Origin: a virus
IMG/VR virus record: IMGVR_UViG_3300042466_000422
Location: 1-32,299 of that record
Reading direction: 5' to 3' (one strand)
Length of the DNA stretch: 32,299 bases
In this document: positions 1,021-19,127 of the stretch, piece by piece
Numbering within the stretch: the first letter of the stretch is position 1
How the letters are laid out: each line of letters opens with the position of its first letter
The notes under the pieces: generated by a model
Told to the model about the DNA's origin: nothing
The model's input: only the letters and a program-made list of their open reading frames with translations
The model's database searches: none
Translations under genes and position numbers: made by a program

Positions 1021-1022
1021 CG

Positions 1023-2813: not shown

Positions 2814-2831
2814 GCCTAGAAAATAAAAAAC

Positions 2832-3545
2832 ATGGACTCATTTTCGCTCGAACATTGCGCGCAAATCTCGGCGCCCGCTTTGCCCATTTTCCACGCTACC
2901 GGAACGCTGGACCTGCGGCTTGCAGACTGCATGGACGTGATGCGTGAGTTTCCTGACAAGCATTTCGACCTCGCCATCGTCGATCCGCCGTATGGAATGG
3001 GCGAAATAGCCGATTCGGAAAAGTCGGCTGGCGTAAAAAACGGCAATAAACACGTCAGCAAAGGATGGAACGACGCACCGCCTCCTCCTGAATACTTCGC
3101 GGAACTCTGCCGCGTGAGCCGCAATCAAATCGTGTGGGGCGGAAACTACTTTCCGCTTCCTGTTTCGCGTGGTTGGATATTCTGGGACAAGCATGCGCCA
3201 ATCGTAAACTACGCCGACGGAGAGCTGGCATGGACGAGCTTCGATAAAAACCTGCGCAAGTTCTCAATGCACTGGCTTGGAGGAATCCGCGCCCAAATGG
3301 AAAAAGGATACGTGAACATCCACCCGACTCAAAAGCCGGTGAAGCTCTACTCGTGGCTGCTGGCTAACTACGCCAAGCAAGGCCAGCGCATCCTCGACAC
3401 CCACCTCGGGAGCGGCTCGCACGCAATCGCGTGCCACTACTTCGGCGCACACCTCACCGCCTGCGAAATCGACGCGGACTATTACACCGCCGCATGCGCC
3501 CGCATCGCCCGCGAGACTGCGCAGATGACCCTCGCTCATCAGTAA
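2832..3545 (+). CDS. orphan DNA methyltransferase (N6-adenine/N4-cytosine type)
   Basis: The 237-residue protein has 'DPPYGMG' (residues 51-57, motif IV, target amino-group binding) before 'HPTQKP' (164-169) and 'LDTHLGSGSHA' (188-198, the SAM-binding FxGxG-type motif I). That order marks the beta class of amino-methyltransferases. It would methylate adenine N6 or cytosine N4 in a short DNA site using S-adenosylmethionine. No restriction endonuclease is encoded nearby, so a protective (anti-restriction) or regulatory role is more likely than a complete restriction-modification system. Motif I reads HLGSGS where many relatives have PFxGSG; the glycines are kept. An A-rich leader precedes the ATG at 2832, without a Shine-Dalgarno. 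Confidence 0.9.
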   Translation: MDSFSLEHCAQISAPALPIFHATGTLDLRLADCMDVMREFPDKHFDLAIVDPPYGMGEIADSEKSAGVKNGNKHVSKGWNDAPPPPEYFAELCRVSRNQIVWGGNYFPLPVSRGWIFWDKHAPIVNYADGELAWTSFDKNLRKFSMHWLGGIRAQMEKGYVNIHPTQKPVKLYSWLLANYAKQGQRILDTHLGSGSHAIACHYFGAHLTACEIDADYYTAACARIARETAQMTLAHQ

Positions 3546-3579
3546 CAGACTGAGCCAGTTTGACGTTTCGAGCAGTGGT

Positions 3580-3816
3580 ATGCTCGACAACCCATTTCTC
3601 GGACTGGACACCGCGACGCTGACGGCGCTTAAGACCAAGACGATTGACGCGATCCAGGCCGTGCTGCTCAACCAAAGCTACAGCCTCAACGGCAAGAGCG
3701 TGAGCCGGGCGGATCTCAACGCGCTGAACAACATGCTCGGCAACTTGCAAGACGCATTGACCGACGCGGCCGGAACGTCAACGGATACGACCTTCATCAG
3801 CTTCAACGGCAACTAA
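3580..3816 (+). CDS. gpW-like head-tail joining protein
   Basis: The 78-residue protein has a helix, a short turn containing 'LNGKSVSRADLNALNNML' and a second helix, which is the layout of lambda gpW-type joiners ('G..V..ADL..L...L'). gpW proteins plug the portal after packaging and create the tail attachment site. Position supports the call: in lambda, W lies between the large terminase and the portal, as here. Sequence similarity is limited and the protein is short, so the assignment rests on pattern plus synteny. Confidence 0.6.
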   Translation: MLDNPFLGLDTATLTALKTKTIDAIQAVLLNQSYSLNGKSVSRADLNALNNMLGNLQDALTDAAGTSTDTTFISFNGN

Positions 3817-3821
3817 ACACC

Positions 3822-5996
3822 ATGAGCAACGACTTCTTCGACGCGTCAAAATTAGTCGCGCAAAAACCTTGGCTTGATCGCGCGCTCGAAAACATTGCAC
3901 CGACCTGGGCGCTCAAGCGTCTCGAGGCTCGCGTGCAGAAGTCTTTGTTCGAGTATAACGCGGCGCGCACCAATCGACTGTATTCGCCGAAGCAGTACGC
4001 TCAGCCGGCCGAGAGCTCGCAGAATCAGCGCGACCGCGTGGTCATGATGTACGAGGCGCGCGACCTGGTGGAAAACTTTCCAGAGGCGCGGGAGATCTCG
4101 CGCAAGTTCGGCCTCTACCTGACGCCGCACGAATACTCACCGACGACCGGCGACCGCGATTACAACCGGGTGATCGACGAGTATTTTCATCAATGGTGCA
4201 AAAATTGCGACGTGACGAACCGGCACAGCTTCAAGAAACTGGTGCAACTCGCAGCCGAGGAACGGCCGATCGACGGTGACTGTGGCTTCGTGATTCGCCG
4301 CAGCGGCGAAGGGCTCAAGCTTCAACTCGTGCCGGCCACGCGCATCGGTAACCCGAACGACACCGCGGTCGCGTCGAACAATTATTACCAGGGCATTATC
4401 ACGAACGACTTCGGCCAGCCGGTCGCATATCGGATCTTCCGCGTGGACCGCAACGGCGTTTACTTTGGCGCCGAGGACATCCCCGCGAATCAGTTTTGCC
4501 ATTACTTCGACCCGTTTCGCGTCGATCAATACCGCGGCATCACCGATCTGCACAGCGCGATCCAGACCGCGCGGATGCTCCACGAGATCCTCCAGGCCGA
4601 AAAGGCCGGCGTGCGCTTCTCGTCGCAACAGGCGGCGCTGATCTTCAACGACCGCGGCACCGCGAACCCGCGCAATCTTTTCCAGCCGAATCCTACGATG
4701 ACTCTGCCGAACGGGCAGCAGCAGAAAAACGAGCTTACCGAGGTCGGCATGATTCGGTACTTCCAGAACTCCGACCGCGTCGAGGTCATGCCGTCGCGTC
4801 CATCGCAGGCGTTCACGGGCTTTGTGCAGCATCTCATGCACGAGATTGCGCTCGGCGTCGGCGTGCCAGAAGGCGTGCTGTTCGGCACCCAAGACTACAA
4901 GGGACCAAGCGTGCGGGCAGAATTCGCCGCGGCCGATCGTGTCTTCACGAAGCAGCAAGGCGTGCTGACCGACAAGGTCTTGGATCCGATCAAGGACGCC
5001 GTGATCCTCGATGCTATCGCCCGCGGCGAGATCGCGCCACCAACTTTGATTGCCGGCGAGACGATGGTGCAGGCTTTGCGCCGGGCGACTAAGGGCGAGT
5101 GGCGCTTCCCGGCCAAGCTCTCGATTGACGTTGGCCGCGAGAGCGCCGCGAACATGAACGAGAACCGGCAGGGCGCGAAGTCGCTGCAAGAGATCGCAGC
5201 CGAGGAAGGCACCGACGCGTTCTCCAGGCTCGAGCAGATCGCAATCGAGGCCGGCTTTGTGAAGGAACTCGCGGTCAAATACGGTGTACCGGAGACGGCG
5301 ATCCGCCTCACCACGACCTCTCTGCCAAGCACGCCCGCGGCCGCGGCCGCAGCCGGCGACGCAGTCGGGGCGAGCGCAGCCGAGGCACAGGCCGCCAGCG
5401 TTGCAGCGGCGCCGGCCGCAATCGAGCCAGTCCAGCAGATCGAAAACGATGCGAACCTGGTCACGATCAACTTCGCGACCGACTCTTACATTCCGACGAA
5501 CGCGATGGCGGAAAACGCTCGGCGCGCGCTCGAGATCCGCGAGAAAAAGCCGATGTCGCAGCGCGGCATGACGAGCGTCGGCATTGCCAGGGCACGGGAT
5601 ATCATGAACAAGCGGCCGATGTCCGAGGACACCGTGCGCCGCATGAAAGCATTTTTCGATCGGCATGAAGCCGACAAGCAGGGCGAGACCTGGGACGAAC
5701 AAGGTAAGGGCTACCAGGCGTGGAACGGGTGGGGGGGAGACGCCGGCTACTCCTGGTCAACGGCCATCGTCGAGAGGCTGAATAAGCAGGCCGACACGAA
5801 GGAACTCAAAGCAGCATCGGCCGAAGTGCGGCAGACCTTTGCAGCGTTGCAACCACCGGAGCCCGAAGAGTGGCTCGACGCCGTGCAGAATTTCCGCGCG
5901 AAACAGAACGGCCGTGTCGATGAGATCAAGCAAAGCATCGTTGGAGAAAAATCTATCATCGAGTTAAGCAAGACGGTTAAAGCTAAAAAGAAATAA
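3822..5996 (+). CDS. portal protein (lambda gpB family) with C-terminal extension
   Basis: At 724 residues this is longer than the usual lambda-type portal (about 530). Residues 1 to about 490 follow the portal pattern, with an N-terminal 'LYSPKQYAQPAESSQNQRD' region, 'IDGDCGFVIRR', and the 'GVGVPEGVLFG' then 'SVRAEFAAADRVFTKQQ' segment typical of gpB proteins. Twelve copies would form the DNA entry ring. An Ala-rich linker (about 500-545) leads to an extra module from about 547 ('TINFATDSYIPTNAMAENA', 'SQRGMTSVGIARARDI', 'DEQGKGYQAWNGWGG'). I recognise this pattern from other phage proteins but cannot name a family. The A-rich leader lacks a Shine-Dalgarno. Confidence 0.9.
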   Translation: MSNDFFDASKLVAQKPWLDRALENIAPTWALKRLEARVQKSLFEYNAARTNRLYSPKQYAQPAESSQNQRDRVVMMYEARDLVENFPEAREISRKFGLYLTPHEYSPTTGDRDYNRVIDEYFHQWCKNCDVTNRHSFKKLVQLAAEERPIDGDCGFVIRRSGEGLKLQLVPATRIGNPNDTAVASNNYYQGIITNDFGQPVAYRIFRVDRNGVYFGAEDIPANQFCHYFDPFRVDQYRGITDLHSAIQTARMLHEILQAEKAGVRFSSQQAALIFNDRGTANPRNLFQPNPTMTLPNGQQQKNELTEVGMIRYFQNSDRVEVMPSRPSQAFTGFVQHLMHEIALGVGVPEGVLFGTQDYKGPSVRAEFAAADRVFTKQQGVLTDKVLDPIKDAVILDAIARGEIAPPTLIAGETMVQALRRATKGEWRFPAKLSIDVGRESAANMNENRQGAKSLQEIAAEEGTDAFSRLEQIAIEAGFVKELAVKYGVPETAIRLTTTSLPSTPAAAAAAGDAVGASAAEAQAASVAAAPAAIEPVQQIENDANLVTINFATDSYIPTNAMAENARRALEIREKKPMSQRGMTSVGIARARDIMNKRPMSEDTVRRMKAFFDRHEADKQGETWDEQGKGYQAWNGWGGDAGYSWSTAIVERLNKQADTKELKAASAEVRQTFAALQPPEPEEWLDAVQNFRAKQNGRVDEIKQSIVGEKSIIELSKTVKAKKK

Positions 5997-5997
5997 C

Positions 5998-8900
5998 ATG
6001 ATCCACACTCAGACTCAAATCGACAACCTCATCGAGCTGGCAATCATTCAGCGCGTCGAGCTCAAGAAGCTCGTCGAGTCGCTGCCCGAGTTGCGCACGC
6101 ACCTCTCGGTCGAGATCGAGCGCAACCTCAACGAGATCGAGCCACTACTGCGCGAAGAGCTGCAATCCTATTTACTGACCAACTCCCAGGCCGAGCACGC
6201 AAAGCTGGGCAATGCGCTCAAGCAAAAGATCGCCGAGCTGGCGGTCCAACTCGAAGACACGACTGCTGCAAAGTATTCCGTGTTGATGGCTGAGCGCGCC
6301 GAGAATGAAACGCTGTTGGCTAAGGCTGAAGCGCGTATCGCCGAGGCTGCATCTGCGCTGCCGAACGCGGTCAAAGAAATCGTCACCGAGGAACTCTCGC
6401 GCTTTCCTCGCGCGGGCGAAATCGACCAACTGCGCAAAGAATTCGCTGAGCCCAAGGGCTTGAATCCCCGGGGCAAGTGGGCGCCAGGTGAGACCTATCA
6501 GCGCTTGGACCTGGTGACATGGAACGGCGATTCCTTTGTTTCGAATATCGACGGCAACCGTGAGCGGCCGAGCCGGAGCGCGGCAGACTGGACTCTAAAT
6601 GCGGCACGCGGCAACAGTGGCGGCGGCGGCGGTGTCACATCGATCACCGACCTCTTGCCGATTCCAAGCAGCGGTCAGATCCTAGGCAGCGAAGGTCCGA
6701 ACTACGTGCCGAAGACCCTGGTGGCCGGCAGTAACATCACCATCACCGAGACGCCGACGACGATCACGATCACGGGCGACGAGGGACAGATCGAGTTACA
6801 GGACGGAACCGAAGCGGCGCCGTCGCTATTTTTTGTCAACGACACGAACACCGGACTCTATCGCCCGACGGCGGACACGGTCGGGATCGTCGGCGGCGGT
6901 AACGACATTGTGCGGTTGACCGGCGTGGCGAGCGCGACCGATTACCTCGAGATCAAGAATGGCATCGGTGTTGGCAGTCCGCTTCATGTACTCGCCGAGG
7001 GCGCGAGCGCGAACATCGGCGTGCATTTGCAGCCGAAGGGCAGCGGGCTTTTCACGATCAGCGACGGCACCGATTTCAACAAGGGCATCCGCTTCCGCAG
7101 CTCATCGAGCGCAGCCAGCGCAGTCACTTTGATCGACGCCGTCTCGACGGCCGGCCGCGTGGTTACTTTGCCAGACGCAACCGACACGCTGGTTGGACGA
7201 TCGACCGCCGACACGCTGAGCAACAAGACCATGATCGCGCCGGCGCTTGGCACGCCGACCGCTTTGATCGGCACGAATATCACCGGCACCGCGGCAGGAC
7301 TGACCGCGGGCAACGTGACTACGAACGCAAATCTGACCGGCGATGTGACGAGCGTGGGCAACGCAACAAGCATCGCCTCGGGCGTGATTGTAAACGCAGA
7401 CGTAAACGCGAGCGCGGCCATCGCTTACTCAAAGCTCAACCTGGCGACGAGCATCGTCGATGCAGACATCAGTGCAGCGGCCGCAATCGTGGACACGAAG
7501 CTCGCGACGATCTCGACCGCTTCGAAGGTCTCGAACAGCGCAACCACTGCGACCTCGGCGAACACCGCCAGCGCAATCGTTGCACGCGACGCCAGCGGCA
7601 ACTTTACCGCCGGCACGATCACGGCGAACCTGACCGGGAATGTCAGCGGATCCTCCGGTAGCACGACCGGCAACGCGGCCACGGCTACGGCGTTGCAGAC
7701 GGCTCGCGCGATCAACGGCGTGAACTTCGACGGCACCGCGGCAATCACGGTTGCGGCTGCAGCCGGCACGCTTACTGGCACGACCCTGGCATCGAACGTA
7801 ACCGCATCGAGTCTGACCAGCGTCGGGACTCTCGGCTCACTCACCGTCACCAATCCGATCACAGGCAGCGTCACGGGATCCAGCGGAAGCACGACCGGGA
7901 ACGCAGCGACGGCGACGGCTCTCGCGACCGGGCGCACCATTGCGATCACGGGCGACATTGTTTACACCTCGCCAAGCTTCGACGGCACCGGGAACGTCAC
8001 CGCGGCCGGTACGCTCGCGACCGTGGCGACGCCTGGATCTACTGGAGGGAGCACCGCGATCCCGATCATCACGATCAACGCGAAAGGCCTGACGACCTCG
8101 ATCACGACCGCGGCGGTCATTGCGCCGGCTGGTACGCTATCTGGCAACACCCTGGCGGCCGGGGTCACGGCTTCATCGCTGACCTCGCTCGGTACGATCG
8201 CGAATCTGACCGCGACGGCCGGCACGATCTCGACCACGCCGACCGCCTCCACCGACATCGCTAACAAGCTTTACGTGGATACGGTCGCGCAAGGTCTCGA
8301 CGCGAAAGCCTCGTGCGTCGCGGCCACCACGGCGGACATCACGCTGACCGGAGCGCAGACCATCGATGGCGTGAGCGTCGTCGCGGGCAATCGCGTCCTG
8401 GTCAAAAACCAATCGCTCTCGCAAAACAACGGGCTTTATCTTTGCGCATCGGGATCGTGGACTCGGACGACCGACGCGAACACCTGGGATGCGCTGACCT
8501 CGGCTTTCACGTTTATCGAGCAGGGCACGCTCAACGGAGACTGCGGCTTTGTCTGTACGGCTGACGCCGGCGGGACCCTGGGCACGACCGCGTTGCCCTG
8601 GTCTCAATTCTCGGGCGCCGGTACGTTCACCGCCGGCACCGGGCTGACGCTGACCGGATCCGTGTTCTCGCTCACCTCGCCGGTCGCAGTCGCAAACGGC
8701 GGAACCGGCTTGACGAGCCTGGGATCTGGCGTCGCGACCTTCCTCGGGACGCCATCGTCGGCGAACCTCCTGGCGGCGGTCAGCGACGAGACCGGATCCG
8801 GCTCGCTCGTGTTCGCCACGAGTCCGACGCTGGTCACGCCGGCGCTGGGCGCGGCCACTGCCACGTCGATTTCAGCAAGCGGAACAGTGACGGGTAGCAA

Positions 8901-10692
8901 CCTCAGCGGCACGAACACGGGCGACCAGACCATCACCCTTACGGGCGGCGTCACAGGTAGTGGTACAGGCTCATTTGCGGCTACGGTGGTCACCAATGCC
9001 AACCTCACTGGCGCGGTTACATCAGTTGGCAACGCCACCTCTCTCGGTTCGTTTTCGTCGGCCAATCTTGCGGCTGCGCTTACGGATGAAACAGGTAGTG
9101 GCGCGGCGGTGTTTGCCACGTCGCCAACCCTCGTCACGCCAATCCTCGGCACGCCCTCCAGTGGCACGCTATCGAGCTGCACGGGTCTGCCCATCAGCAC
9201 AGGCGTCTCTGGTCTCGGAACGGGCATCGCAACGGCTTTGGCCATTAACACTGGCAGCGCGGGTGCTCCGGTGCTGTTCAACGGCGCATTGGGCACGCCA
9301 TCTAGCGGTACGGTGACGAACCTTACAGGCACGGCCTCGATTAACATCAACGGCACGGTGGGCGCGACGACGGCCAGCACAGGCGCGTTTACGACGTTGA
9401 GCGCGAGTGGAGCTATTACTGGAAGTCTAGGTGCTACTGTTCGCGGTTATTCGGTTCCAGCAAGCGGTTCAGGTATGGAACTATTTTGGGATGGAACGGA
9501 AAGCATTATCCAATCGTATAATCGCACAAGTCCATCTTATCAGCCATTATGGTTAGAAGGTGGTACACTTGTTCGCGTTGGCTTAGGTGGCGCTCAAGTA
9601 GCTGGATTCTCCTCCACCGGACTCGCGGTGACAGGCGCGTTGTCGAGCACCACAGGAGCCAACTTTGCGACGAGCAGTGGGTCGGTGGGCATTGGGACTG
9701 CGAGTCCGGCTACAAAACTAACAGTAGCAAAATCATTTAACATTTCCAGCGATGGCGTATATGCGCCGTCGTCTGCTGCTGGAACAGGACTTAACTTTGG
9801 TTTTGATGGCGCTGGAACAGAGGAATCGTGGATTCAAGCGTTGCGAAATAACACCAGCGAAGTTCGTAACTTAATGCTTAATCCGTTAGGAGGTAATCTG
9901 CTGGTGGGCGTAACAGCAAACACAGGCGTAGATACTGGAGTGCAGCGTTTAGTAGTCACAGGTATCGCCTCTGGAAATGGTGGTGCTTTAGGGCTTATCA
10001 GCGACAGTCTTGGTCGTAATATCATTATTACAGACAGTTCAAAAACTAATGTAGGAGCTATAAACATAAGCTCTACGCAAATGACTGTGGGAACAAATAG
10101 TGCTACACCTTTGTTGTTTTATACTAGTTCATCTGAGCGTATGCGCATCGACACCAGCGGTAATCTGCTGGTGGGAATGAGTAGTGCGCCATCCGGTATT
10201 GCTTCAGACCCAGTTGGTGTTTGTATATTTGGAGCATCTGCCACTGGAGCAACCGTATTTACCCGAGATTCCGCAAATAGTGTTCTTTATGTAAATAACA
10301 AGACAAGTAGCGGAGCTTTAATTACTTTCTACAATGGTGGAAACTCGGTTGGGAGTATTACATCCAATGGAACCATTACGATTTATAATACTACATCTGA
10401 TTATCGCTTAAAAGACATTACTGGCCCGCTTACAGACAGCGGAGCGTTTATCGACGCTCTTAAACCTAAAGTTGGTACTTGGAAATCCAACGGCAGCAAA
10501 TTTGCGGGATTCTTAGCTCACGAATTTGCCGAGGTTTGCCCATCTGCTGTGACTGGTGAAAAAGACGCCGTGGATAGCGACGGCAATCCGAAATACCAAG
10601 GTATGCAAGCCAGCTCCGCTGAAGTCATCGCAAATCTAGTTGCGGAACTTCAGTCGCTTCGCCAACGTGTCGCCGCACTCGAATCCAACTAA
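5998..10692 (+). CDS. large tail fibre with S74 self-cleaving chaperone domain
   Basis: This 1564-residue fibre starts with a helical segment (about 1-150), then a carbohydrate-binding-module-like motif ('GKWAPGETYQRLDLVTWNG', about 159-200). A long Ser/Thr/Gly/Ala-rich shaft of degenerate repeats follows, such as 'SSGSTTGNAATATAL' and 'FATSPTLVTP'. The C-terminus holds 'SERMRIDTSGNLLVGM' and then a peptidase S74 intramolecular chaperone from about 1465. Its signature SDYRLK places the nucleophile S1467 and partner K1472 five residues apart, as in endosialidase-type chaperones, followed by a coiled-coil end. Such fibres trimerise and shed the chaperone. Base composition falls sharply near 9420. 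Its position between portal and protease genes is unusual. Confidence 0.9.
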   Translation: MIHTQTQIDNLIELAIIQRVELKKLVESLPELRTHLSVEIERNLNEIEPLLREELQSYLLTNSQAEHAKLGNALKQKIAELAVQLEDTTAAKYSVLMAERAENETLLAKAEARIAEAASALPNAVKEIVTEELSRFPRAGEIDQLRKEFAEPKGLNPRGKWAPGETYQRLDLVTWNGDSFVSNIDGNRERPSRSAADWTLNAARGNSGGGGGVTSITDLLPIPSSGQILGSEGPNYVPKTLVAGSNITITETPTTITITGDEGQIELQDGTEAAPSLFFVNDTNTGLYRPTADTVGIVGGGNDIVRLTGVASATDYLEIKNGIGVGSPLHVLAEGASANIGVHLQPKGSGLFTISDGTDFNKGIRFRSSSSAASAVTLIDAVSTAGRVVTLPDATDTLVGRSTADTLSNKTMIAPALGTPTALIGTNITGTAAGLTAGNVTTNANLTGDVTSVGNATSIASGVIVNADVNASAAIAYSKLNLATSIVDADISAAAAIVDTKLATISTASKVSNSATTATSANTASAIVARDASGNFTAGTITANLTGNVSGSSGSTTGNAATATALQTARAINGVNFDGTAAITVAAAAGTLTGTTLASNVTASSLTSVGTLGSLTVTNPITGSVTGSSGSTTGNAATATALATGRTIAITGDIVYTSPSFDGTGNVTAAGTLATVATPGSTGGSTAIPIITINAKGLTTSITTAAVIAPAGTLSGNTLAAGVTASSLTSLGTIANLTATAGTISTTPTASTDIANKLYVDTVAQGLDAKASCVAATTADITLTGAQTIDGVSVVAGNRVLVKNQSLSQNNGLYLCASGSWTRTTDANTWDALTSAFTFIEQGTLNGDCGFVCTADAGGTLGTTALPWSQFSGAGTFTAGTGLTLTGSVFSLTSPVAVANGGTGLTSLGSGVATFLGTPSSANLLAAVSDETGSGSLVFATSPTLVTPALGAATATSISASGTVTGSNLSGTNTGDQTITLTGGVTGSGTGSFAATVVTNANLTGAVTSVGNATSLGSFSSANLAAALTDETGSGAAVFATSPTLVTPILGTPSSGTLSSCTGLPISTGVSGLGTGIATALAINTGSAGAPVLFNGALGTPSSGTVTNLTGTASININGTVGATTASTGAFTTLSASGAITGSLGATVRGYSVPASGSGMELFWDGTESIIQSYNRTSPSYQPLWLEGGTLVRVGLGGAQVAGFSSTGLAVTGALSSTTGANFATSSGSVGIGTASPATKLTVAKSFNISSDGVYAPSSAAGTGLNFGFDGAGTEESWIQALRNNTSEVRNLMLNPLGGNLLVGVTANTGVDTGVQRLVVTGIASGNGGALGLISDSLGRNIIITDSSKTNVGAINISSTQMTVGTNSATPLLFYTSSSERMRIDTSGNLLVGMSSAPSGIASDPVGVCIFGASATGATVFTRDSANSVLYVNNKTSSGALITFYNGGNSVGSITSNGTITIYNTTSDYRLKDITGPLTDSGAFIDALKPKVGTWKSNGSKFAGFLAHEFAEVCPSAVTGEKDAVDSDGNPKYQGMQASSAEVIANLVAELQSLRQRVAALESN
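7642..7923 (+). repeat. near-identical shaft repeats in the tail fibre gene
   Basis: The peptide GSSGSTTGNAATATAL occurs at fibre residues 551-566 and again at 627-642, 76 residues apart, each followed by a 'TARAI' or 'ATGRTI' stretch. The DNA copies differ mainly at third codon positions, so the peptide rather than the DNA is conserved. Other shaft pairs include 'DETGSG..VFATSPTLVTP' near residues 935 and 1035. These look like beta-rich repeats built by internal duplication. Confidence 0.7.
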
Positions 10693-10697
10693 AACAC

Positions 10698-10841
10698 ATG
10701 AACACTGAACAAGCCTTAAATAACCTATACGCCGCCGCCCGCCTCGCTCCTCTGCCAGCCGAGCAACACGAAATCATCCGCAAAAGCGCGGAAGTGCTCG
10801 TCGAAGCCTTGAAGCCCAAGGAAGAGAAGAAAGCCGACTAA
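10698..10841 (+). CDS. small unknown protein, 47 residues
   Basis: This short gene follows the fibre stop by five bases and ends one base before the next start. It encodes a charged helical peptide beginning MNTEQALNNLYAAARLAPL and ending in a Lys/Glu-rich tail (KPKEEKKAD). No domain is recognised. Its tight fit between two genes and an open reading frame without odd codons support it as real. The leader is A-rich (AACTAAAACAC before the ATG), like those of other genes here. It might be a small chaperone for the fibre or a lysis accessory, but there is no direct evidence. Confidence 0.55.
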   Translation: MNTEQALNNLYAAARLAPLPAEQHEIIRKSAEVLVEALKPKEEKKAD

Positions 10842-10842
10842 G

Positions 10843-11373
10843 ATGTCCGGAACAAAAGACGTAAACTGGCGCAGCTACGTTGGCCCTGCGGACAACGGCA
10901 AGGTCGTTACGTCTGAGGACTGGAAAGCTCCAAGCAACCCACGCGAGTGGGACGACTTGTTTAAATGTTCCAATGTGGACAACCTAACGGCTATTGGACT
11001 AGTGATTCCATCTAGCCACGAGGACTCGATTGATTGTGTGCGCGGCAGCGGCTATTCCTTTAAATCCTGCGACATTCAAGGCTCAGTGACGGTGAAGGGC
11101 GCGATTGATGGGCTGAAGCTCTATAACTGCGTTGTAAGCGGCACGGTGGAGCTAGGGCAATATGACAACTACTGGGTCAAAGGCCGCGCTCCTACACGCA
11201 GAGTTTCCTTGCTCAACTGCTGCTCACCGGATGGCGAGCCAATTCGTGTCAAACTGTGGGACGCTGAGATGCCTGTGGTGCAGAATACCAATGTAAAACT
11301 GGTCAAGATACCAAAGTGGGTTTGGCTGCCCTATTTCTTGTTCCGTCGTTTGACGAATCCCAAAGCAGTATAA
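10843..11373 (+). CDS. unknown protein, beta-helix-like with hydrophobic C-terminus
   Basis: The 176-residue protein has alternating short strands and turns ('SFKSCDIQGSVTVKGAIDG', 'LKLYNCVVSGTVELGQYD') reminiscent of a right-handed beta-helix or pectate-lyase-like fold. Near the end is an aromatic, hydrophobic segment ('IPKWVWLPYFLFRRL') that could anchor it in or at a membrane. No catalytic motif is obvious. It lies between the tail fibre and the holin-like genes, so it might be a fibre partner, a host-surface or exclusion factor, or part of the lysis block. Similar proteins may exist in environmental phages, but I cannot assign a family. Confidence 0.5.
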   Translation: MSGTKDVNWRSYVGPADNGKVVTSEDWKAPSNPREWDDLFKCSNVDNLTAIGLVIPSSHEDSIDCVRGSGYSFKSCDIQGSVTVKGAIDGLKLYNCVVSGTVELGQYDNYWVKGRAPTRRVSLLNCCSPDGEPIRVKLWDAEMPVVQNTNVKLVKIPKWVWLPYFLFRRLTNPKAV

Positions 11374-11376
11374 GCC

Positions 11377-11775
11377 ATGCTCGATCTTATCACCAACGCA
11401 CTAGGCGGCGGCGCACTCGGTGTCTTGCTCCGCATCGGCAACGGCTTTTTTGAGAACTACAAGGCCGGACAAGATCACAAACGAAAGCTGGAAGAGGCGA
11501 AAGCAATGGCCGAGATCGCCAGCGACAAAGCAAAGTGGGATGCGTTCACGGCTAGCCAACAAGCGGCAACTCCTCCGGCCAACACTTCGGCATGGGCGGC
11601 CAATTTGATAACGCTGTTTCGCCCATTCATCACGCTGCTTCTTTTGATTCTAGTGACCATCGTTTTCTTTCGCGTCACGGCATCCGAGCAAGCTGAGATG
11701 ATCGACGAGATCCAGTTCTGCGCTTTCAACTGCATCGGGTGGTGGTTCGGTGATCGCATGACTCGCAAAAAATGA
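11377..11775 (+). CDS. holin-like membrane protein (GTA-type 3TM holin pattern)
   Basis: The 132-residue protein has a Gly-rich amphipathic start ('LITNALGGGALGVLLRIG'), a charged helix (about 28-55), a strong transmembrane segment (about 72-95, 'LFRPFITLLLLILVTIVFF') and a second hydrophobic stretch near the end ('CAFNCIGWWFGDRM'). The 'FRPFIT' entry and 'WWFG.R' exit match my memory of the three-TM holins found with gene transfer agents. Holins collect in the inner membrane and open at a set time to start lysis. It overlaps the next membrane gene by four bases (ATGA at 11772-11775), so the two are probably translated together. Confidence 0.6.
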   Translation: MLDLITNALGGGALGVLLRIGNGFFENYKAGQDHKRKLEEAKAMAEIASDKAKWDAFTASQQAATPPANTSAWAANLITLFRPFITLLLLILVTIVFFRVTASEQAEMIDEIQFCAFNCIGWWFGDRMTRKK

Positions 11776-12098
11776 GCGACCACAAGGATCTCATGGAAGT
11801 CGCCAAACTTTGGAAGGAAACCGGCTGGCTGACGGCGGTCATCGGCGGCGCCGGCATGGTTGCCCGACTCCTGGCGAACCCTATCCAGGGCACGATCTGG
11901 GACAGCGTGCGGAGGGTCATCATGGCTGCCATCGTCTCGACTCTTGCCTGGGTTATCGTCGAGCAGATCGAGGTCAGCTCCCTGGTGAAGGCCGTGACCT
12001 ACGGCGTCGCCGGGCTCCTGGCGCCGGAGATTATCGACGGGCTCACGACTCTCGCAAAAAAGTATTCTAAGAACCCGGGCAAGCTCTTGAAAAAATGA
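11772..12098 (+). CDS. phage holin, three membrane segments
   Basis: This 108-residue protein has three predicted transmembrane helices: about 19-35 ('WLTAVIGGAGMVARLLA'), 49-63 ('VIMAAIVSTLAWVIV') and 71-90. It has a charged N-terminus and a Lys-rich C-terminal tail, the size and layout of class I holins of the LydA/lambda-S kind. It would form inner-membrane lesions that trigger lysis. It overlaps both neighbours by four bases, forming a cluster of three membrane proteins. The endolysin is not adjacent; the best candidate is about 14 kb downstream at 26382. Confidence 0.7.
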   Translation: MSDHKDLMEVAKLWKETGWLTAVIGGAGMVARLLANPIQGTIWDSVRRVIMAAIVSTLAWVIVEQIEVSSLVKAVTYGVAGLLAPEIIDGLTTLAKKYSKNPGKLLKK

Positions 12099-12727
12099 GC
12101 CCGAAACTGATCACCGCTGCGCTCGCTGCAACCGTCGTCTGTTTTGCAGGCGTCGGAGTGATCACGGTCAAAAGCGTTTCCAAGCATATCGCGGCGAGTG
12201 ACAAGGAATTCGCCATGACGAGCAACGTGCTCAGTCCGCTGTTCGATGTTTACGGGCTCGAGATTGTCGATGGCCAGGCGAAGGCGAGCAAGGGACTGAT
12301 CGATCCGAAGGCGTTTTGTGCGTCGCTGAACAAGCTCCAGGCCGAAGCCGAGCGATTGCTCGCGGAATTTGGCAACCCGGCGGATCTCCTGGCGCAACAC
12401 AAACTCGTCGCAGCCTACCTCAAGAAAGCTCGAGACCTCTGCGACCGGGGCGAGATCTCAACCCTCAACTCGCCGGCCATGACGGCCGAGCTATACGCGG
12501 TCATCGAGCCCATGACGGGTCTGATCAATAAGACTCTGCAAGATCAACTCGCTCTTTCGCGCACGCACAAGGACGCCGCGGACCAGGCTCTGCTCACGTT
12601 CGAGCGCTTCGCCAGCGTCGCGGCCGGCCTGGGAATCGTCTTTGCGGTCGCTCCCTGGATCGGGGCGAAGAAGAAGCCGGCCGCAGCAATCGCTCCGAAG
12701 GTCCGGAAAAAGAAGGTCAAGCGCTGA
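12095..12727 (+). CDS. two-TM protein with helical periplasmic domain, possible lysis accessory
   Basis: The 210-residue product has an N-terminal membrane segment (about 5-25), a roughly 145-residue helical region with two cysteines, and a second membrane segment (about 172-190) followed by a very basic tail ('KVRKKKVKR'). The expected topology places the helical domain in the periplasm and both ends in the cytoplasm. That layout resembles four-helix-bundle sensor domains. In a lysis cluster it could be an antiholin, a spanin-like factor or a superinfection-exclusion protein. I do not recognise a family. It overlaps the holin gene by four bases (ATGA at 12095-12098). Confidence 0.5.
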   Translation: MSPKLITAALAATVVCFAGVGVITVKSVSKHIAASDKEFAMTSNVLSPLFDVYGLEIVDGQAKASKGLIDPKAFCASLNKLQAEAERLLAEFGNPADLLAQHKLVAAYLKKARDLCDRGEISTLNSPAMTAELYAVIEPMTGLINKTLQDQLALSRTHKDAADQALLTFERFASVAAGLGIVFAVAPWIGAKKKPAAAIAPKVRKKKVKR

Positions 12728-12754
12728 TCGGTTTTGACGGCCATCGCATCAGCG

Positions 12755-13693
12755 ATGGAACAAGTCATCACTTTCTCAGCTTCGGCCGGCGTCATCGACG
12801 CCGAATCCGGCATCATCCGCGGCGTCTCGCTGATCACTAAAGGCCCGGCGCTCGGTCACGGCGTCATGATTGACGACAAGACCCTGGCGCAGGTTAAGAC
12901 CGCGGCCGAACAATATGCCGGCGGGCTTAAAGTTAAGCTGAACCACAGTGGCGGCGCCGGCGACATCGTCGGTTACATCGATGCGCTGCGCATCAGCGGC
13001 GAAAAGCTGCTCGGCGATCTGCACTTGCTGCAAACCTCGCCCCATCGCGCTTACATTTTAGAGATTGCCGAGCGGATCCCGGACACGTTCGGGCTCTCGA
13101 TTGCGTTCTCGGGTCCGTCTGAAAAAAGCACGGACAAGCTCACAACTTTGCAACGGTGCTCGGAAATCTACTCGGTCGATCTTGTCAGCGAACCTGCTGC
13201 CAATCCGAACGGATTTTTTGCGCGCAAACTCAAACTCGAGAGCGATGTCAGCGAGTCGCCGGAAGCAGAAATCGAAATCAAATTACCTATGAATGACGAC
13301 CTCAAACAGGCCATCGAAGGCATGATTCAATCTGCCATGATGGGCATGAATGATAAGATCGCGAAGCTCGAAAGCGCTCTCGCTCCGAAAGAAGACAAGC
13401 CCGCCATGATGAGCGCGCAAAACGAAGTCGTGCAGCTCGCCGCCAACACCGCGGCCCTCGCTGCCGTCAAAGAATTTGCCAAGTCGTTCGGTGCGCCAGC
13501 CGCTCCGATTGCCTCGGCCGAAGCAGTCAAACCAGTCGTGCAGGTCCAGAAGTTCGAAGATGTCGTTGCCTCTAAAGCCACCGAGCTCAAGGGCGACAAA
13601 TCCTCGGCCATCACCTTCGCGATCAAAAACCATGCTGACCTTTACGCTGCGTATCGCGCACGCGTTCAAGGCGGCGAACTCGTCAAACTCTAA
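12755..13693 (+). CDS. prohead protease with scaffold-like C-terminal region
   Basis: From the ATG at 12755 the protein is 312 residues. Residues 1 to about 158 are a phage prohead protease: 'KLNHSGGAGDIVGYID' carries the likely catalytic H64, 'PDTFGLSIAF' the likely nucleophile S115, and 'EIYSVDLVSEPAANPNGFF' the conserved closing segment. Residues about 160-312 are helical, charged and Ala/Lys-rich, as expected of a scaffold or delta-domain. Such enzymes trim the capsid precursor and themselves during maturation. An in-frame TTG at 12734 would add seven residues; I prefer the ATG because the protein then begins at the family-like 'EQVITFSA'. No Shine-Dalgarno is visible for either start. 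Confidence 0.85.
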   Translation: MEQVITFSASAGVIDAESGIIRGVSLITKGPALGHGVMIDDKTLAQVKTAAEQYAGGLKVKLNHSGGAGDIVGYIDALRISGEKLLGDLHLLQTSPHRAYILEIAERIPDTFGLSIAFSGPSEKSTDKLTTLQRCSEIYSVDLVSEPAANPNGFFARKLKLESDVSESPEAEIEIKLPMNDDLKQAIEGMIQSAMMGMNDKIAKLESALAPKEDKPAMMSAQNEVVQLAANTAALAAVKEFAKSFGAPAAPIASAEAVKPVVQVQKFEDVVASKATELKGDKSSAITFAIKNHADLYAAYRARVQGGELVKL

Positions 13694-14075: not shown

Positions 14076-15041
14076 ATGTATAGCAATTCCGCAGCCATTT
14101 TCCGCGGCGATATCGCCGGTGTAGTTGAGCAGGCAAAAGACTTTGAGGCCGGCCTGATCGGCACCGCCGTCATGCCAATCCTCGACGTGCCCGTGCGCGC
14201 CGGCCAATATCCATCCTTCGTTTTGAAGGAAGGTCAGCTCCTCAAGAGCGACATGAAGAACCGCTCGCCATACAGCGCCTACGCTCGTGGCACCCGCGCC
14301 TTCGTGCAAGACACCTACACCGCGCTCGAGTACGGTTACGAAGAGGCCGTTGACGATACCGTCACCCTCGACGTTGCTCGCTTCTTCGACGCCGAAGTCA
14401 TCGCCGCCAAGCTCGCCAAGCGCAAACTTCTCCTGGCGCACGAGCTTCGCGTCGCTGCTAAAATCTTCGACAGTGGCACTTTCACCGCGACGAACTCCGG
14501 CACCGCTTACACGACCGCGAATCTCGCTACGTTTGACGCTGGTCAAGACGTGCAAGAGGCCATCGATCGCTTGCTCTCCAAGGGCGAATCTACGACCAAC
14601 CTCAAGGTGGTCATTCCATATCCAGTATGGACCCGTGTTCGCGCCAGCACGAAATTCCAGAACCGCCTCCGCGGCACCGGTCTTTCGACTGACACCATCC
14701 TCAACGCTTCTACCCAAGCAGCCGCGGAGGTATTTGGCGTTTCTGAGGTCCTGATTGGTCGCGCCTCATACGATAGCGCCCCCGAAGGCGTTGCGTTCTC
14801 CGCTGCCAATGCCTGGGCCAACACCTACATCTGGGTCGGTTCCGTTACCGATGGCTCCGCCGGCTACTTCGGTGGCGGCGCTGGCTTTACCTTAAACTGG
14901 TCCGAGTACGGTCCAGCAATCGGTGTCTCGACCTATCGCGAAGAGGCGATCAAGTCGAACATCGTCCGCGCCTCGCAATATACCGCCGAGAAGGTGGTCA
15001 ATTCGAACGCCGGTCAGCTCGTGACGACTCAGTATTCCTAA
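14076..15041 (+). CDS. major capsid protein
   Basis: The 321-residue protein has the length and order of an HK97-fold major capsid protein of the lambda-like group: an N-terminal arm, an E-loop region ('YEEAVDDTVTLDVARFFD'), a helical spine ('AAKLAKRKLLLAHELRVAAK'), 'QDVQEAIDRLLSKGESTTN' and a C-terminal beta domain ending in 'VSTYREEAIKSNIVRASQY'. It would be the main shell subunit. The leader is CCCTTAAAAAATAAATTACC with no Shine-Dalgarno, notable for what should be the most highly expressed gene. A strong terminator lies just downstream and glycosyltransferase genes follow. Confidence 0.9.
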   Translation: MYSNSAAIFRGDIAGVVEQAKDFEAGLIGTAVMPILDVPVRAGQYPSFVLKEGQLLKSDMKNRSPYSAYARGTRAFVQDTYTALEYGYEEAVDDTVTLDVARFFDAEVIAAKLAKRKLLLAHELRVAAKIFDSGTFTATNSGTAYTTANLATFDAGQDVQEAIDRLLSKGESTTNLKVVIPYPVWTRVRASTKFQNRLRGTGLSTDTILNASTQAAAEVFGVSEVLIGRASYDSAPEGVAFSAANAWANTYIWVGSVTDGSAGYFGGGAGFTLNWSEYGPAIGVSTYREEAIKSNIVRASQYTAEKVVNSNAGQLVTTQYS

Positions 15042-15063
15042 TCCTTAAACGGATTTTGATCTT

Positions 15064-15100
15064 AAAGCCTCACGCTTTACGGCGTGGGGCTTTTTGTTTT
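15064..15100 (+). terminator. Rho-independent terminator after the capsid gene
   Basis: AAAGCCTCACGC (15064-15075) pairs with GCGTGGGGCTTT (15082-15093) with one U-G wobble and a 6-base loop. The T-run TTTTTGTTTT (15091-15100) follows. This is the clearest terminator in the late region. It would end or partly attenuate transcripts after the major capsid gene, giving high capsid expression relative to the glycosyltransferase and connector genes downstream. Confidence 0.85.
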
Positions 15101-15148
15101 GACCATTCCAGGAGATCCGCAAGACCTGACGCACACACAACGACGACC

Positions 15149-16534
15149 ATGATACTTTCTCTTTGCGTAATTGCGGGCAATGAAGCGGCACAGATCGGCG
15201 CCATGCTCGAGAGCTTTAACGGCGTGATCGACGAGGTCTCACTCGTGCGCGCCATCGGCTCCCAGGAACCGGACGCGACCGAGCAGATCGTGCGCGACTG
15301 GTGCATGCAGAATTCCGTCGGCTTTATCTTTTCTGAATACAAGAATGGCGCCACGGCACAGGCCTGGAAGCATGTCGATTCGTTCGCTCGCGCGCGTAAC
15401 CAATCCTTCGCCCAGGCGTGCGGCGACTGGCTGATCTGGGCGGACTGCGACGACGTGATCGCGGATGCTGACAAACTCCGGGACAGACTCGCCGAGCTAT
15501 CCGAGGACGTGCTCATGCTTCGCTGCCCGTATGATGTGCACGGCACCGGCAAAAAGCTGCACCGCGAACGGATCATTCGGCGCTCGGCGTTTGTGTCTGG
15601 GCGCATCTGGCACCATGACGTACACGAGAACCTGCTTCTGCTGCCGAACGATCGGCACTTCGATTGGGCGACGCCAATCTGGCATCACAAGCCGATCTCG
15701 ATCAAGCAGGACAACCGCAAGCGGAACCTGGCGATCCTGGGGCGGAGCGTGGCCGAGTCTGCAACGCAGTATTTTTACGTGCACCAAGAGCACTATTGCG
15801 CCGGCAACAAGACGGCCGCGGAGCAGTTCGGCCGCATCGCGCTGAGCTTCCCCAACCTCGACGACTCTTTTCGGTACGAGGTCCAGCTGAATCTCGCCAG
15901 GCTCGTCGCTTCCCGGCGTGAGGCGATGGGCTTCGCGATGAGCGCGCACGGTGTTTTCCCTTGGTGCCGGGAGGCCATTGCCTCAATCATCCTCCTGGCG
16001 TTTGAGCGCAACGACGGCAAGCGGGCGAGCTTCTGGGCGTCGCGGATGCTGACATTGCCGGAGCCGACCGAGAAAGAGCGGCCGTGGACCCACGAGGTCA
16101 AATGGTACAACTGGGCCGGCCACGACCTGGCGGCTCGGGCGTTTCGTCTCGCCGGCCAACTGGACGACGCCGCGGCGATGCAGCTCGTGTTTCACAAGCA
16201 TACCCAGCCGAGGATTCGAATCATGCAAAAGACCCTCGGCAACTCGACCCGATCGGTGTCATTCCGCGACGCGTGGCTCTCGACGGCGGCGCAACCGGAC
16301 CGCATCGAGCACCGTTTCATAGTGCGCGCCGACGATGCCGAGACGATCAACATGGCCAAGCAATTCCTGCACGACGTGGGCGAGCCCAGCGCAGCGGATC
16401 CGGGCGTCATCCAGGTCAATGCCGAGGATGGCATGGTCGCACCGCACGGCTGGGATGAGCGGATCCTGGCGAGTGGCTGCACGCTGATTGACGCCGAGAA
16501 CATCGAGCAGATCCTCGGGACAAAAAAGCCATGA
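15149..16534 (+). CDS. glycosyltransferase, GT2-like
   Basis: From the ATG at 15149 the product is 461 residues. Residues 1 to about 110 show the GT-A nucleotide-sugar fold: 'ILSLCVIAGNEAAQIGAML', 'DSFARARNQSFAQACGDW' and the metal-binding DCDD (99-102) in 'WLIWADCDDVI'. The remaining ~350 residues are helical and may be an acceptor-binding or TPR-like part. It would transfer a sugar from a nucleotide donor to a protein or glycan. An open frame extends upstream to 15056, but it runs through the terminator hairpin, so the ATG is preferred. The gene lies just after the capsid gene and overlaps the next by four bases. Acceptor unknown; the virion or the host surface are candidates. Confidence 0.8.
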   Translation: MILSLCVIAGNEAAQIGAMLESFNGVIDEVSLVRAIGSQEPDATEQIVRDWCMQNSVGFIFSEYKNGATAQAWKHVDSFARARNQSFAQACGDWLIWADCDDVIADADKLRDRLAELSEDVLMLRCPYDVHGTGKKLHRERIIRRSAFVSGRIWHHDVHENLLLLPNDRHFDWATPIWHHKPISIKQDNRKRNLAILGRSVAESATQYFYVHQEHYCAGNKTAAEQFGRIALSFPNLDDSFRYEVQLNLARLVASRREAMGFAMSAHGVFPWCREAIASIILLAFERNDGKRASFWASRMLTLPEPTEKERPWTHEVKWYNWAGHDLAARAFRLAGQLDDAAAMQLVFHKHTQPRIRIMQKTLGNSTRSVSFRDAWLSTAAQPDRIEHRFIVRADDAETINMAKQFLHDVGEPSAADPGVIQVNAEDGMVAPHGWDERILASGCTLIDAENIEQILGTKKP

Positions 16535-17169
16535 GTGAGCAGCCGGCCATCGTTATCTGCACGGTCAACTCGGCTTGTCTCGAGGTCATGCTCGCCTCGA
16601 TCAAGGCCTACGTGCCGGCCGGGGTCGAAAAGCACGTGCATTTCAAGGTCGGCGCTACGTTCGGCGAGGCCTACAACTTTGCGATGCGTGACGCCTTCAC
16701 GCGCCACACCGAGCTCATCATCTGCAACGACGATATCGTTTTCACGCCGACGACCTGGGCGAAGCTTCTGGCGGACGTTGCTCTGCTCAAGGAGGCGGTC
16801 GCCGATCTTGGCTACGTCGCAGCCAGGTCGGACTATGCTCGAGGATTGCAGAACATCCGTTGCGGCTCCGGGCGCCTGGACTTCTTGCGGTTCGAATCGG
16901 AGCGCAGCATCATTGAGACGCCGGTCATCGCGCCGATCTGCGCGTGGATCCACCGGGATGCGTGGGTCGATTTTCCTCCGATCAACTGGTTCAGCGACGA
17001 CGTGCAATGCGCGGACATGAAGCGCCGGCACTTTGTTTCCCGAGCCTACGTGCACCACGTCGGCTCACAGACGTGCGGCAACGACGCAGCCAGGTGCATG
17101 GCCGATGCCGAGCCCTGGCTCAAAGCGAACCGGCCGGCGCTGCACGCGCTGCACTTCGGCGCCGTTTGA
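16531..17169 (+). CDS. second glycosyltransferase-like protein
   Basis: The 212-residue product resembles a short GT-A enzyme. It opens with a beta-strand start 'PAIVICTVNSACLEVML', then 'TFGEAYNFAMRDAFTRHTE' and NDD (66-68) in 'LIICNDDIVFTPTTW' in the place of the DxD metal motif. A later 'WFSDDVQCADMKRRHF' and 'AYVHHVGSQT' fit the acceptor/donor-site region of small rhamnosyl- or GT2-like enzymes. It overlaps the upstream glycosyltransferase by ATGA (16531-16534), so the two likely act together or in sequence. Donor and acceptor are unknown. Confidence 0.65.
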   Translation: MSEQPAIVICTVNSACLEVMLASIKAYVPAGVEKHVHFKVGATFGEAYNFAMRDAFTRHTELIICNDDIVFTPTTWAKLLADVALLKEAVADLGYVAARSDYARGLQNIRCGSGRLDFLRFESERSIIETPVIAPICAWIHRDAWVDFPPINWFSDDVQCADMKRRHFVSRAYVHHVGSQTCGNDAARCMADAEPWLKANRPALHALHFGAV

Positions 17170-17185
17170 CAAGTCGCACAATTAT

Positions 17186-17506
17186 ATGGCCGCCGTCCGA
17201 GATTTCGACCCGACGCAGATCAATTCCGACTTCTCGGCGATACTCGCGCAGGCCGGGATCTCGTTCACGTATCAGAGCACCTCGATCACCGGCGTCTGGT
17301 CGTCATCGCGCGATGCTTTCGCGGACTTCGAGGACCAGCGTCGCGACGACAGTAAGTTCACGGTTTTCCTACTGACCTCGAGCGTCAGCGCCGTGCCCCA
17401 GGTCACGCAGACTCTCTCACGGGCGGGCATCACCTATTTCATCGAGCGCGTGACCCTGGACGCTGAGGGCGCCGGCTGCGAAATCGAAGTCTGCAAGTCG
17501 ATATGA
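17186..17506 (+). CDS. head-tail connector-like protein
   Basis: From the ATG at 17186 the protein is 106 residues with mixed helix and strand ('FDPTQINSDFSAILAQAG', 'ISFTYQSTSITGVWSSS', 'FTVFLLTSSVSAVPQ', 'VTLDAEGAGCEIEVCKSI'). Its size, beta-rich end and position between capsid and tail-completion genes fit a lambda FII-like connector. The frame is open further upstream, inside the glycosyltransferase gene, but 17186 is the first ATG after that gene's stop. It overlaps the next gene by ATGA at 17503-17506. The assignment rests on synteny. Confidence 0.5.
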   Translation: MAAVRDFDPTQINSDFSAILAQAGISFTYQSTSITGVWSSSRDAFADFEDQRRDDSKFTVFLLTSSVSAVPQVTQTLSRAGITYFIERVTLDAEGAGCEIEVCKSI

Positions 17507-18303
17507 TTGATATTAAAACCAGTTTTTCGCAGCTTGAAATGCAGCTACATCTTTTGGCGAAAGCGGCAAAAGTTGATCTTGGCTCGGTGATTAAAGAAGA
17601 AGCCAAGTACGCGATCCAGACCATCGTGAAATTCACCCGTCCAAAACAAAAGGCCCAAGGCGTCAACGCGGTGCGCGGAGATTTTAACAAGCTCGCGGAA
17701 CCGTTGGTTTACCAAGACCTACAAGCTAAGGCGACCGAAGGCGGATTTTATAAATCGATGGCTAGATATGTTCGCAATCGTAAGGTCGAGAAGTTGCGCC
17801 TGCTGCTCAATAATCCTAAGCTCTCACACTATTACGGAAAGCCTCTGCTTGAAAGCGAAGATGCTATCAAGAAATATCATCGCAGTAAGCGAAACGCAAA
17901 CGGCAGAATTGAAGGCAAGCCGCGAGTCCTTGCGTTTGGATTGGATTTTCGTCGTGTACGAAAGACGATGGAAGATCGAGTTGGCTGGAGTGTCAGCGGC
18001 TGGAGGTCATCCGCAATAGTGACTGGCGCGCGCTATAAAAAGTTCAGCGACAAACTTAAGCCACAAGCTGGAGGGAATACGCTTTTTGGTTCGGTGCGTT
18101 CTACCTTTGGACCGGATCCATTTATTAAGGCTACGGCTAGTAACGTGAAGATCTCAAATTATCAGCGCATGATTGACGGGACTATAAATTCACGCATCAA
18201 AACAACCACCAGGAAAGTCGCCGCCGTTCTTGCCAACCGCGCCGTCAATCTTGGCTTCACCCGTGTCGGCGGTGCGATGCCAATCAAAACCCCAACAGCA
18301 TGA
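17503..18303 (+). CDS. tail completion protein (gpZ / HK97 gp10-like)
   Basis: The 266-residue basic protein sits where lambda encodes Z, between the connector and the tail terminator. The helical N-terminal part ('FSQLEMQLHLLAKAAKVDL') and Arg/Lys-rich middle match the look of tail-completion proteins, which help the finished tail accept the head. No catalytic motif is seen. The gene is clearly more AT-rich than its neighbours (42% GC over 17521-17580 against 58% over 17221-17280), suggesting it was exchanged separately. It overlaps both neighbours by four bases. Confidence 0.5.
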   Translation: MIDIKTSFSQLEMQLHLLAKAAKVDLGSVIKEEAKYAIQTIVKFTRPKQKAQGVNAVRGDFNKLAEPLVYQDLQAKATEGGFYKSMARYVRNRKVEKLRLLLNNPKLSHYYGKPLLESEDAIKKYHRSKRNANGRIEGKPRVLAFGLDFRRVRKTMEDRVGWSVSGWRSSAIVTGARYKKFSDKLKPQAGGNTLFGSVRSTFGPDPFIKATASNVKISNYQRMIDGTINSRIKTTTRKVAAVLANRAVNLGFTRVGGAMPIKTPTA

Positions 18304-18731
18304 GCACCCGCACAAACATCCGCAACGCAACCGGCGCCGCGCTGACCGGCGCTCTTGTCGTGCCGACGGCAAACATCCTCCGCGGGCGAAACAACACGAT
18401 CGCCAGTATCAGCTTCCCGGCCGCAGCGATCTACGCCGTCAGCGAGCAGATCGAGGTCCGCACGCTCGGGCCGAGCAACCGCACGCAATACCGGCAGCTC
18501 CAGCTCATTGTAGACTACTTTGTCGCCGAGAGCGGGACCTATTTGATCGACGATCTTTTTGACACCGGGAGCGCAGCGGTCGAGGCGGCCGTGCTCGCCG
18601 ACGTGACGCTGGGTGGCGTATGTCAAGATCTGCATTTGACGGCAGTCGATTATACGATCGAGCCAGATGAGGACCGGCGCTTCGGATCGGCTCGTCACAC
18701 TTTCAACTGCATCTACTTTTCAACCGACTAA
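18300..18731 (+). CDS. tail terminator protein (gpU-like)
   Basis: The 143-residue protein has the length and alternating strand-helix pattern of lambda-type tail terminators ('IYAVSEQIEVRTLGPSNR', 'YRQLQLIVDYFVAES', 'LHLTAVDYTIEPDEDRRFG'). These cap the growing tail tube and form part of the head-tail joint. Position just before the tube protein supports the call. The start overlaps the previous stop (ATGA at 18300-18303). Confidence 0.6.
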   Translation: MSTRTNIRNATGAALTGALVVPTANILRGRNNTIASISFPAAAIYAVSEQIEVRTLGPSNRTQYRQLQLIVDYFVAESGTYLIDDLFDTGSAAVEAAVLADVTLGGVCQDLHLTAVDYTIEPDEDRRFGSARHTFNCIYFSTD

Positions 18732-18740
18732 CCTAATTTT

Positions 18741-19127
18741 ATGGCAACCAAACTCGGCCGTGAAGGCCTCATCAAACTATCCAGCACGACGATTGGCGAG
18801 CTACGCAACTACGCTCTGACCCATACGTCCGACACCGTCGAAGACTCCGTCATCGGCGACACCTACCGCACCCGGCTCGCATCCATGAAATCCTTCTCGG
18901 TTTCGGGCGACCTTTATTGGGACGAGACCGACGCCGGCCAGCTCCTGATCACCATCGGAAGCTCGGTCACGTTGAACCTTTATCCAGAGGGCTCGACGAC
19001 CGGCGATGTTTACTATTCCGGCGCCGCGATCGTCACCCAGTTCAACGTCAGCGCCAGCTTCGACGGCATCATCGAGGGCTCAATCGCCTTCGAAGGTAAC
19101 GGACCGCTAAGCACGTTGACCGCTTAA
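18741..19127 (+). CDS. major tail tube protein
   Basis: The 128-residue product has the compact beta-sandwich look of siphovirus tube proteins: 'LGREGLIKLSSTTIGELRN', 'TYRTRLASMKSFSVSGDLYW', 'SVTLNLYPEGSTTGDVYY' and 'FDGIIEGSIAFEGNGPLS'. Hexameric rings of this protein stack around the tape measure to form the tail. Its position between the terminator and the G/GT chaperones is the standard order. No Shine-Dalgarno is visible (TAACCTAATTTT before the ATG). Confidence 0.85.
   Translation: MATKLGREGLIKLSSTTIGELRNYALTHTSDTVEDSVIGDTYRTRLASMKSFSVSGDLYWDETDAGQLLITIGSSVTLNLYPEGSTTGDVYYSGAAIVTQFNVSASFDGIIEGSIAFEGNGPLSTLTA

Follow-up and report, generated by a model that had tools for sequence, protein, structure and literature searches.

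The major capsid protein gene of an uncultured virus is followed by two glycosyltransferase genes, and this capsid-linked pair suggests that the phages sugar-coat their own particles. The window analysed, 32,299 bases long, is a virus record from IMG/VR. Its two enzymes, GT1 and GT2b, probably carry out cytosolic O-glycosylation of a virion protein, with the capsid protein as the likeliest acceptor. The gene order is as originally predicted: the capsid gene (14076-15041) and its terminator precede the two glycosyltransferase genes, and the connector gene begins at 17186. The features of the window are as follows.

65-544, repressor-like gene (weak match to a CI-repressor HTH)
1023-2813, terminase
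2832-3545, DNA methyltransferase
3822-5996, portal
5998-10692, fibre-like protein of 1564 residues
13705-14055, cement-type decoration protein
14076-15041, + strand, major capsid protein gene (321 residues), likeliest candidate acceptor and synteny anchor
15064-15100, + strand, intrinsic terminator at the junction of capsid gene and cassette (stem at 15064-15093, then a T-rich tail, TTGTTTT)
15149-16534, + strand, GT1, glycosyltransferase of 461 residues (PF00535, phrog_13126 and GmaR profile matches)
15149-15703, + strand, GT1 domain 1, residues 1-185, catalytic GT-A (alignments; GmaR match over profile positions 3-203)
15704-16198, + strand, GT1 domain 2, residues 186-350, TPR-like helical repeat (AlphaFold model m0701ea759daf)
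16199-16531, + strand, GT1 domain 3, residues 351-461, truncated second GT-A (alignment with 563-residue homologs)
16531-17169, + strand, GT2b, GT-A glycosyltransferase of 212 residues (PF00535 matches of orthologs; model aligned to GT-A enzymes)
16531-16806, + strand, N-terminal half of GT2b, residues 1-92, mosaic and fast-changing (median dN/dS; allele types)
17186-17506, + strand, head-tail connector, closing the cassette (weak Phage_attach match; synteny in relatives)
18300-18731, tail terminator
18741-19127, tail tube, followed by tail and recombination genes

The capsid protein is identified by its match to the major head protein family phrog_1005 (7.5e-31), and its gene has a dN/dS of 0.085. 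The connector reaches 17.9 bits against Phage_attach, below the cut-off of 26; a good tail-terminator match lies two genes 3' of it. Between these two genes, a neck-type protein (17503-18303) diverges sharply among close relatives, with 28-50% identity against 75-100%, while its neighbours are conserved. The long protein directly 3' of the portal gene (5998-10692) has fibre-like, head-decoration-like (phrog_2647) and C-terminal Peptidase_S74 chaperone-like matches, and its position is unusual for a tail fibre. A 210-residue protein (12095-12727), just 5' of a putative protease gene, has an N-terminal hydrophobic segment and no PHROG match.

The terminator hairpin comprises 13 base pairs and a 4-base loop. 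The cassette edge first proposed, 15064, is the first base of this hairpin and not the start of GT1, which homologs place at the ATG at 15149; the open frame extends 5' to a TTG at 15056, beside the hairpin. A simple scan finds eight terminator-like sites in the whole region against 7.5 expected from shuffling, a rate that led us to drop any claim of significance from the scan alone. Conservation is more telling. Terminator-like hairpins occur in 112 of 113 distinct capsid-GT1 spacers of relatives, compared with 4 of 113 after shuffling, and their stems differ between relatives. The same spacer carries an HNH-endonuclease-like gene of about 245 residues with a HHVDHIIPIKHGG motif in about 17 loci (L023, L067, L099, L137, L155, L229, L252 and others). 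This insert, absent from the window, is likely a homing endonuclease at the capsid-GT1 junction.

Relatives in viral contigs number 261 with GT1 as the query and 177 with GT2b. In 50,697 phage records, tblastn returns no match to either enzyme, and no relative of the window capsid was found there. To avoid bias, loci were also gathered through the capsid protein, counting each distinct locus whose downstream sequence reaches 2.5 kb or more. GT1 lies directly behind the capsid gene in all 79 of these, some of which have an HNH-type gene inserted before GT1. None of the 79, in a search that reaches to near 70% capsid identity, is a capsid relative without the cassette. Given this placement and the retained terminator, the glycosyltransferase cassette is a fixed trait of the lineage and a constant part of its structural operon. 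The original description of the two genes as interrupting that operon is therefore misleading. All cassette carriers with a window-type capsid belong to one lineage, and thus the perfect association may represent one or two events. The lineage appears to be a freshwater one, judging from the IMG/VR samples of the relatives and from a lake MAG in which locus L139 lies. As to the host, genome collections give a single match, a Betaproteobacteria MAG contig that is probably a binned phage and offers a weak hint. In 399 genomes from the order of this MAG, short DNA matches were weighed as candidate CRISPR spacers, and the best, G060, lies in no repeat array.

The tie between GT1 and a capsid gene recurs beside an unrelated head module, in which the capsid assignment is putative and positional. 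In another contig, L337/L354, the putative capsid gene is immediately followed by a GT1 homolog with 32% identity, colinear and with both GT-A domains. The head genes differ from those of the window and include a GpA terminase, a lambda-family portal and a ClpP-type protease. The capsid ORF of L354 has no PHROG, Pfam, NCBIfam or PDB match, and a viral-contig search with the L337 enzyme gives no match. The L354 module with the GT1 homolog spans 510-10570, and a further glycosyltransferase-like gene is found 2 kb on, at 9983-10570.

The slot between GT1 and the connector always holds sugar-transfer genes. Among 146 distinct GT1-connector segments, 83 contain a truncated GT1 with GT2b and 63 a full GT1 with other glycosyltransferase or methyltransferase genes; none is empty and none is mixed. 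GT2b is absent from the 63, where its place is taken by methyltransferases, a GT9-like gene or other glycosyltransferases; the GT9-like label was assigned by eye and has no library match. The deeper branch was first met in L139, where GT1 has 563 residues and a complete second GT-A domain with SDD, FSDNEFS and HxHP motifs. The L139 cassette (9048-12755 of a Betaproteobacteria MAG contig) consists of four genes, for a two-domain glycosyltransferase, a methyltransferase, a GT-A enzyme and a GT9-like enzyme. The methyltransferase weakly matches the sugar O-methyltransferase TylF. With a full GT1, methyltransferases and GT9-like genes in the deeper relatives, the slot is best described as a variable glycan cassette. 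The window clade appears to have lost one sugar-adding domain of GT1 and gained a separate enzyme, GT2b. A comparison by hhalign lends no support to homology between GT2b and GT1's second GT-A domain (probability 0.6%, no profile similarity), so it is the distribution alone that suggests the replacement, and common descent is not claimed.

GT1 is sequentially composed of a catalytic GT-A domain, a TPR-like domain and a truncated second GT-A domain. It scores 26.3 bits against PF00535 (GT2 family), above the curated cut-off of 23.3, and matches the beta-1,4-glycosyltransferase family phrog_13126 at 1.7e-14. In domain 1, the DCDD (residues 99-102) and HHxVHEN motifs are invariant in the alignments. 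The best solved relative by sequence is GmaR, with a profile match of 8.2e-10 over about 200 residues. SunS and ThuS follow with weak matches (E about 0.01-0.05) and are also the top Foldseek matches of the weak GT1 model. In VIA-align, the TPR domain that the model shows at residues ~200-356 aligns to TPR proteins, OGT included, with Z up to 12.9, although Z values of 12-13 are close to background for helical repeats and serve as evidence of fold only. The model has a pLDDT of about 60-90 over residues 220-350. Compared with the 563-residue homologs, domain 3 is shorter by about 100 residues and has no SDD motif; what remains is still under constraint (dN/dS 0.098), and GT1 as a whole is under purifying selection (dN/dS 0.073).

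Neither GT1 nor GT2b looks membrane-bound. A 19-residue hydropathy scan of the two enzymes and of the L139 cassette reveals no apparent membrane segment. The peak value is 1.51 in GT1 and 1.93 in GT2b, the latter where the GT-A fold has its first strand and helix. Nor does the scan reveal the membrane-embedded flippase or transferase trait of Gtr-type serotype conversion in the two enzymes.

The structure prediction first suggested as a check yielded a TPR fold in GT1 and a GT-A-like GT2b, but both models are poor, with mean pLDDT of 50 and 60. Their alignments included close relatives only, having been fixed before the deeper homologs turned up, and this shallow input accounts for the quality. 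The Foldseek ranks are thus taken as supporting evidence only.

GmaR, the flagellin O-GlcNAc transferase of Listeria monocytogenes, resembles GT1 in having an N-terminal GT-A domain of about 180 residues followed by TPR. The TPR domain that follows the glycosyltransferase domain in GmaR has been proposed to recognise flagellin (PMC9638930). The two proteins differ at the C terminus, where GmaR carries a helical antirepressor domain. That domain is absent from GT1, whose C terminus aligns with the second GT-A domain, truncated in the window and complete in relatives. GT1 also differs in being phage-encoded and located beside a capsid gene. Lacking the antirepressor domain, GT1 is regarded as working like GmaR and is not filed as GmaR. 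SunS and ThuS, the glycocin S-glycosyltransferases, are GT2-type enzymes that modify protein, but they act on a cysteine of a small peptide.

The start of GT2b and the stop of GT1 share 4 nt (ATGA), and GT2b itself has no family match in Pfam or PHROG. The original call of two GT-A-like enzymes is right. For GT2b, 15 of 24 orthologs match PF00535 weakly (best 6e-4), and all keep NDD (66-68), FSDD (154-157) and HH (175-176). The GT2b model aligns to GT-A enzymes such as GnT-I with a Z of 9.3, at a model pLDDT of only 60. The gene is under purifying selection overall (dN/dS 0.243). The two halves of the protein evolve differently. Measured against the window over all 212-residue orthologs, dN/dS has a median of 0.447 in residues 1-92 and 0.072 in residues 93-212; these values are rough because synonymous divergence is high. 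In the near clade, with 36 unique GT2b proteins, residues 1-92 form six types with exchanged segments, and there is hardly any variation in residues 93-212. The exchange between phages seems to involve segments around residues 1-28, 29-60 and 76-95. L014 and L018, for instance, share 98% identity in GT1 and 92% in the C-terminal half of GT2b, but 60% in its N-terminal half. Since donor binding in GT-A enzymes is the job of the N-terminal half, the mosaic naturally prompts the hypothesis that the donor has changed. That phages exchange capsid glycan types through these N-terminal alleles, on a frozen C-terminal half, is a speculative extension that we consider improbable. If true, phages of one freshwater lineage could interchange the sugar types of their capsids, with selection coming from hosts, protists or particle-binding surfaces.

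These features are consistent with the following pathway. GT1 would be a soluble, GmaR/OGT-like enzyme whose TPR domain holds the acceptor protein. Its N-terminal GT-A domain would place the first sugar, from a nucleotide-sugar donor, on a freshly synthesised virion protein, for which the product of the neighbouring upstream capsid gene is the likeliest candidate. A further sugar would come from GT2b, in a task that in deeper relatives falls to GT1's own second GT-A domain; there, methyltransferases and the GT9-like enzyme may extend and cap the glycan. The terminator 3' of the capsid gene would hold glycosyltransferase levels well below the capsid level. The sugar coat may benefit the particle by shielding it or by changing adsorption.

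The original prediction named virion proteins or the host surface as targets. A virion protein is favoured because the nearest solved relatives (GmaR, SunS and ThuS) act on proteins, because GT1 combines a TPR domain with no apparent membrane helix, and because its gene is tied to the capsid gene, the second head module included. The constant filling of the slot, the conserved terminator and the methyltransferase genes of the cassettes, one of them with the weak TylF match, also argue for virion glycosylation. Action on the host surface, which is without positive support, is doubtful: in an infected or lysogenic host, the enzymes would modify precursors of LPS or capsule, altering receptors or blocking superinfection. 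The glycosyltransferase gene lies inside the virion operon in every relative, unlike serotype-conversion genes, whose usual place is the prophage edge, and the lack of an apparent membrane segment and the protein-directed nature of the closest solved relatives point the same way. Surface modification is nevertheless a common role of phage glycosyltransferases (PMC12619734), and the repressor-like gene at 65-544 would allow lysogeny. Glycosylation of a modified base in the phage genome is far less probable still. DNA-modifying phage glycosyltransferases are known (cited in PMC12619734), and the window encodes a DNA methyltransferase, but the ORFs scanned, which cover part of the small ones, include no nucleotide hydroxymethylase or other base-modification gene. 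A TPR domain suits a protein acceptor better, and DNA modification leaves the capsid-adjacent position unexplained.

A closer competitor, itself a variant of virion glycosylation and overlapping with it, is that the acceptor is a virion protein other than the capsid, such as the decoration protein, the tail tube or the fibre-like protein. The cassette lies between head and tail genes, the capsid and tail-tube C termini of mycobacteriophages both bear glycans (PMC12619734), and the tail-tube C terminus of the window, LSTLTA, keeps Ser and Thr. The constant neighbour, however, is the capsid gene, in the second head module too, and we judge one of these other acceptors possible but unlikely. Correlation of pairwise identities was uninformative for finding the acceptor, since the variation of the glycosyltransferases follows that of the capsid protein with a rho of 0.42-0.44, no higher than for neighbours.

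Glycosylation of a virion protein, the preferred reading, is already known in mycobacteriophages, and the window cassette is a variant of it. Glycosylated capsids were originally called rare in phages, which is fair, but they are not unprecedented: mycobacteriophages carry glycans on capsid and tail tube (PMC11256854, PMC12619734, both citing Freeman et al. 2023). In Che8 and Rita, phage glycosyltransferases are associated with virion-protein glycans (PMC11256854, PMC12619734). In Maravista, an F1 relative, the glycosyltransferase genes are near the 3' end of the genome, in contrast to their place at the capsid gene in the window. No sequence relation to mycobacteriophage glycosyltransferases was detected for GT1 or GT2b (tblastn, 50,697 phage records) or for the L139-type GT1, which in phage records finds only Streptomyces and Pelagibacter phages and one unclassified phage. 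Streptomyces Samistivirus phages (e.g. Daubenski genes 35 and 36) also have two adjacent, overlapping glycosyltransferase genes, and the matching sequence, at 25% identity (1e-5), is similar to the L139-type enzyme in its second GT-A domain. These genes, however, lie beside endolysin, tRNA and nucleotidyltransferase genes, outside the capsid-connector slot, and no TPR-type partner is seen. No report of a capsid-adjacent glycosyltransferase cassette was found in the open-licence literature.

Virion glycosylation has been documented in few cultured phages. In the apparently widespread, uncultured freshwater lineage described here, the putative capsid-adjacent glycosylation cassette looks obligatory, exists in several enzymatic versions and is set off by a conserved terminator. 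Four points go beyond the routine: the fixation of the cassette in an uncultured lineage, its terminator, its variants, and the mosaic in one half of GT2b. GT1 and the capsid protein form a concrete candidate enzyme-acceptor pair, open to testing in E. coli with no need to culture the phage, and the cassette variants provide a natural series for asking what capsid sugars do for the phage.
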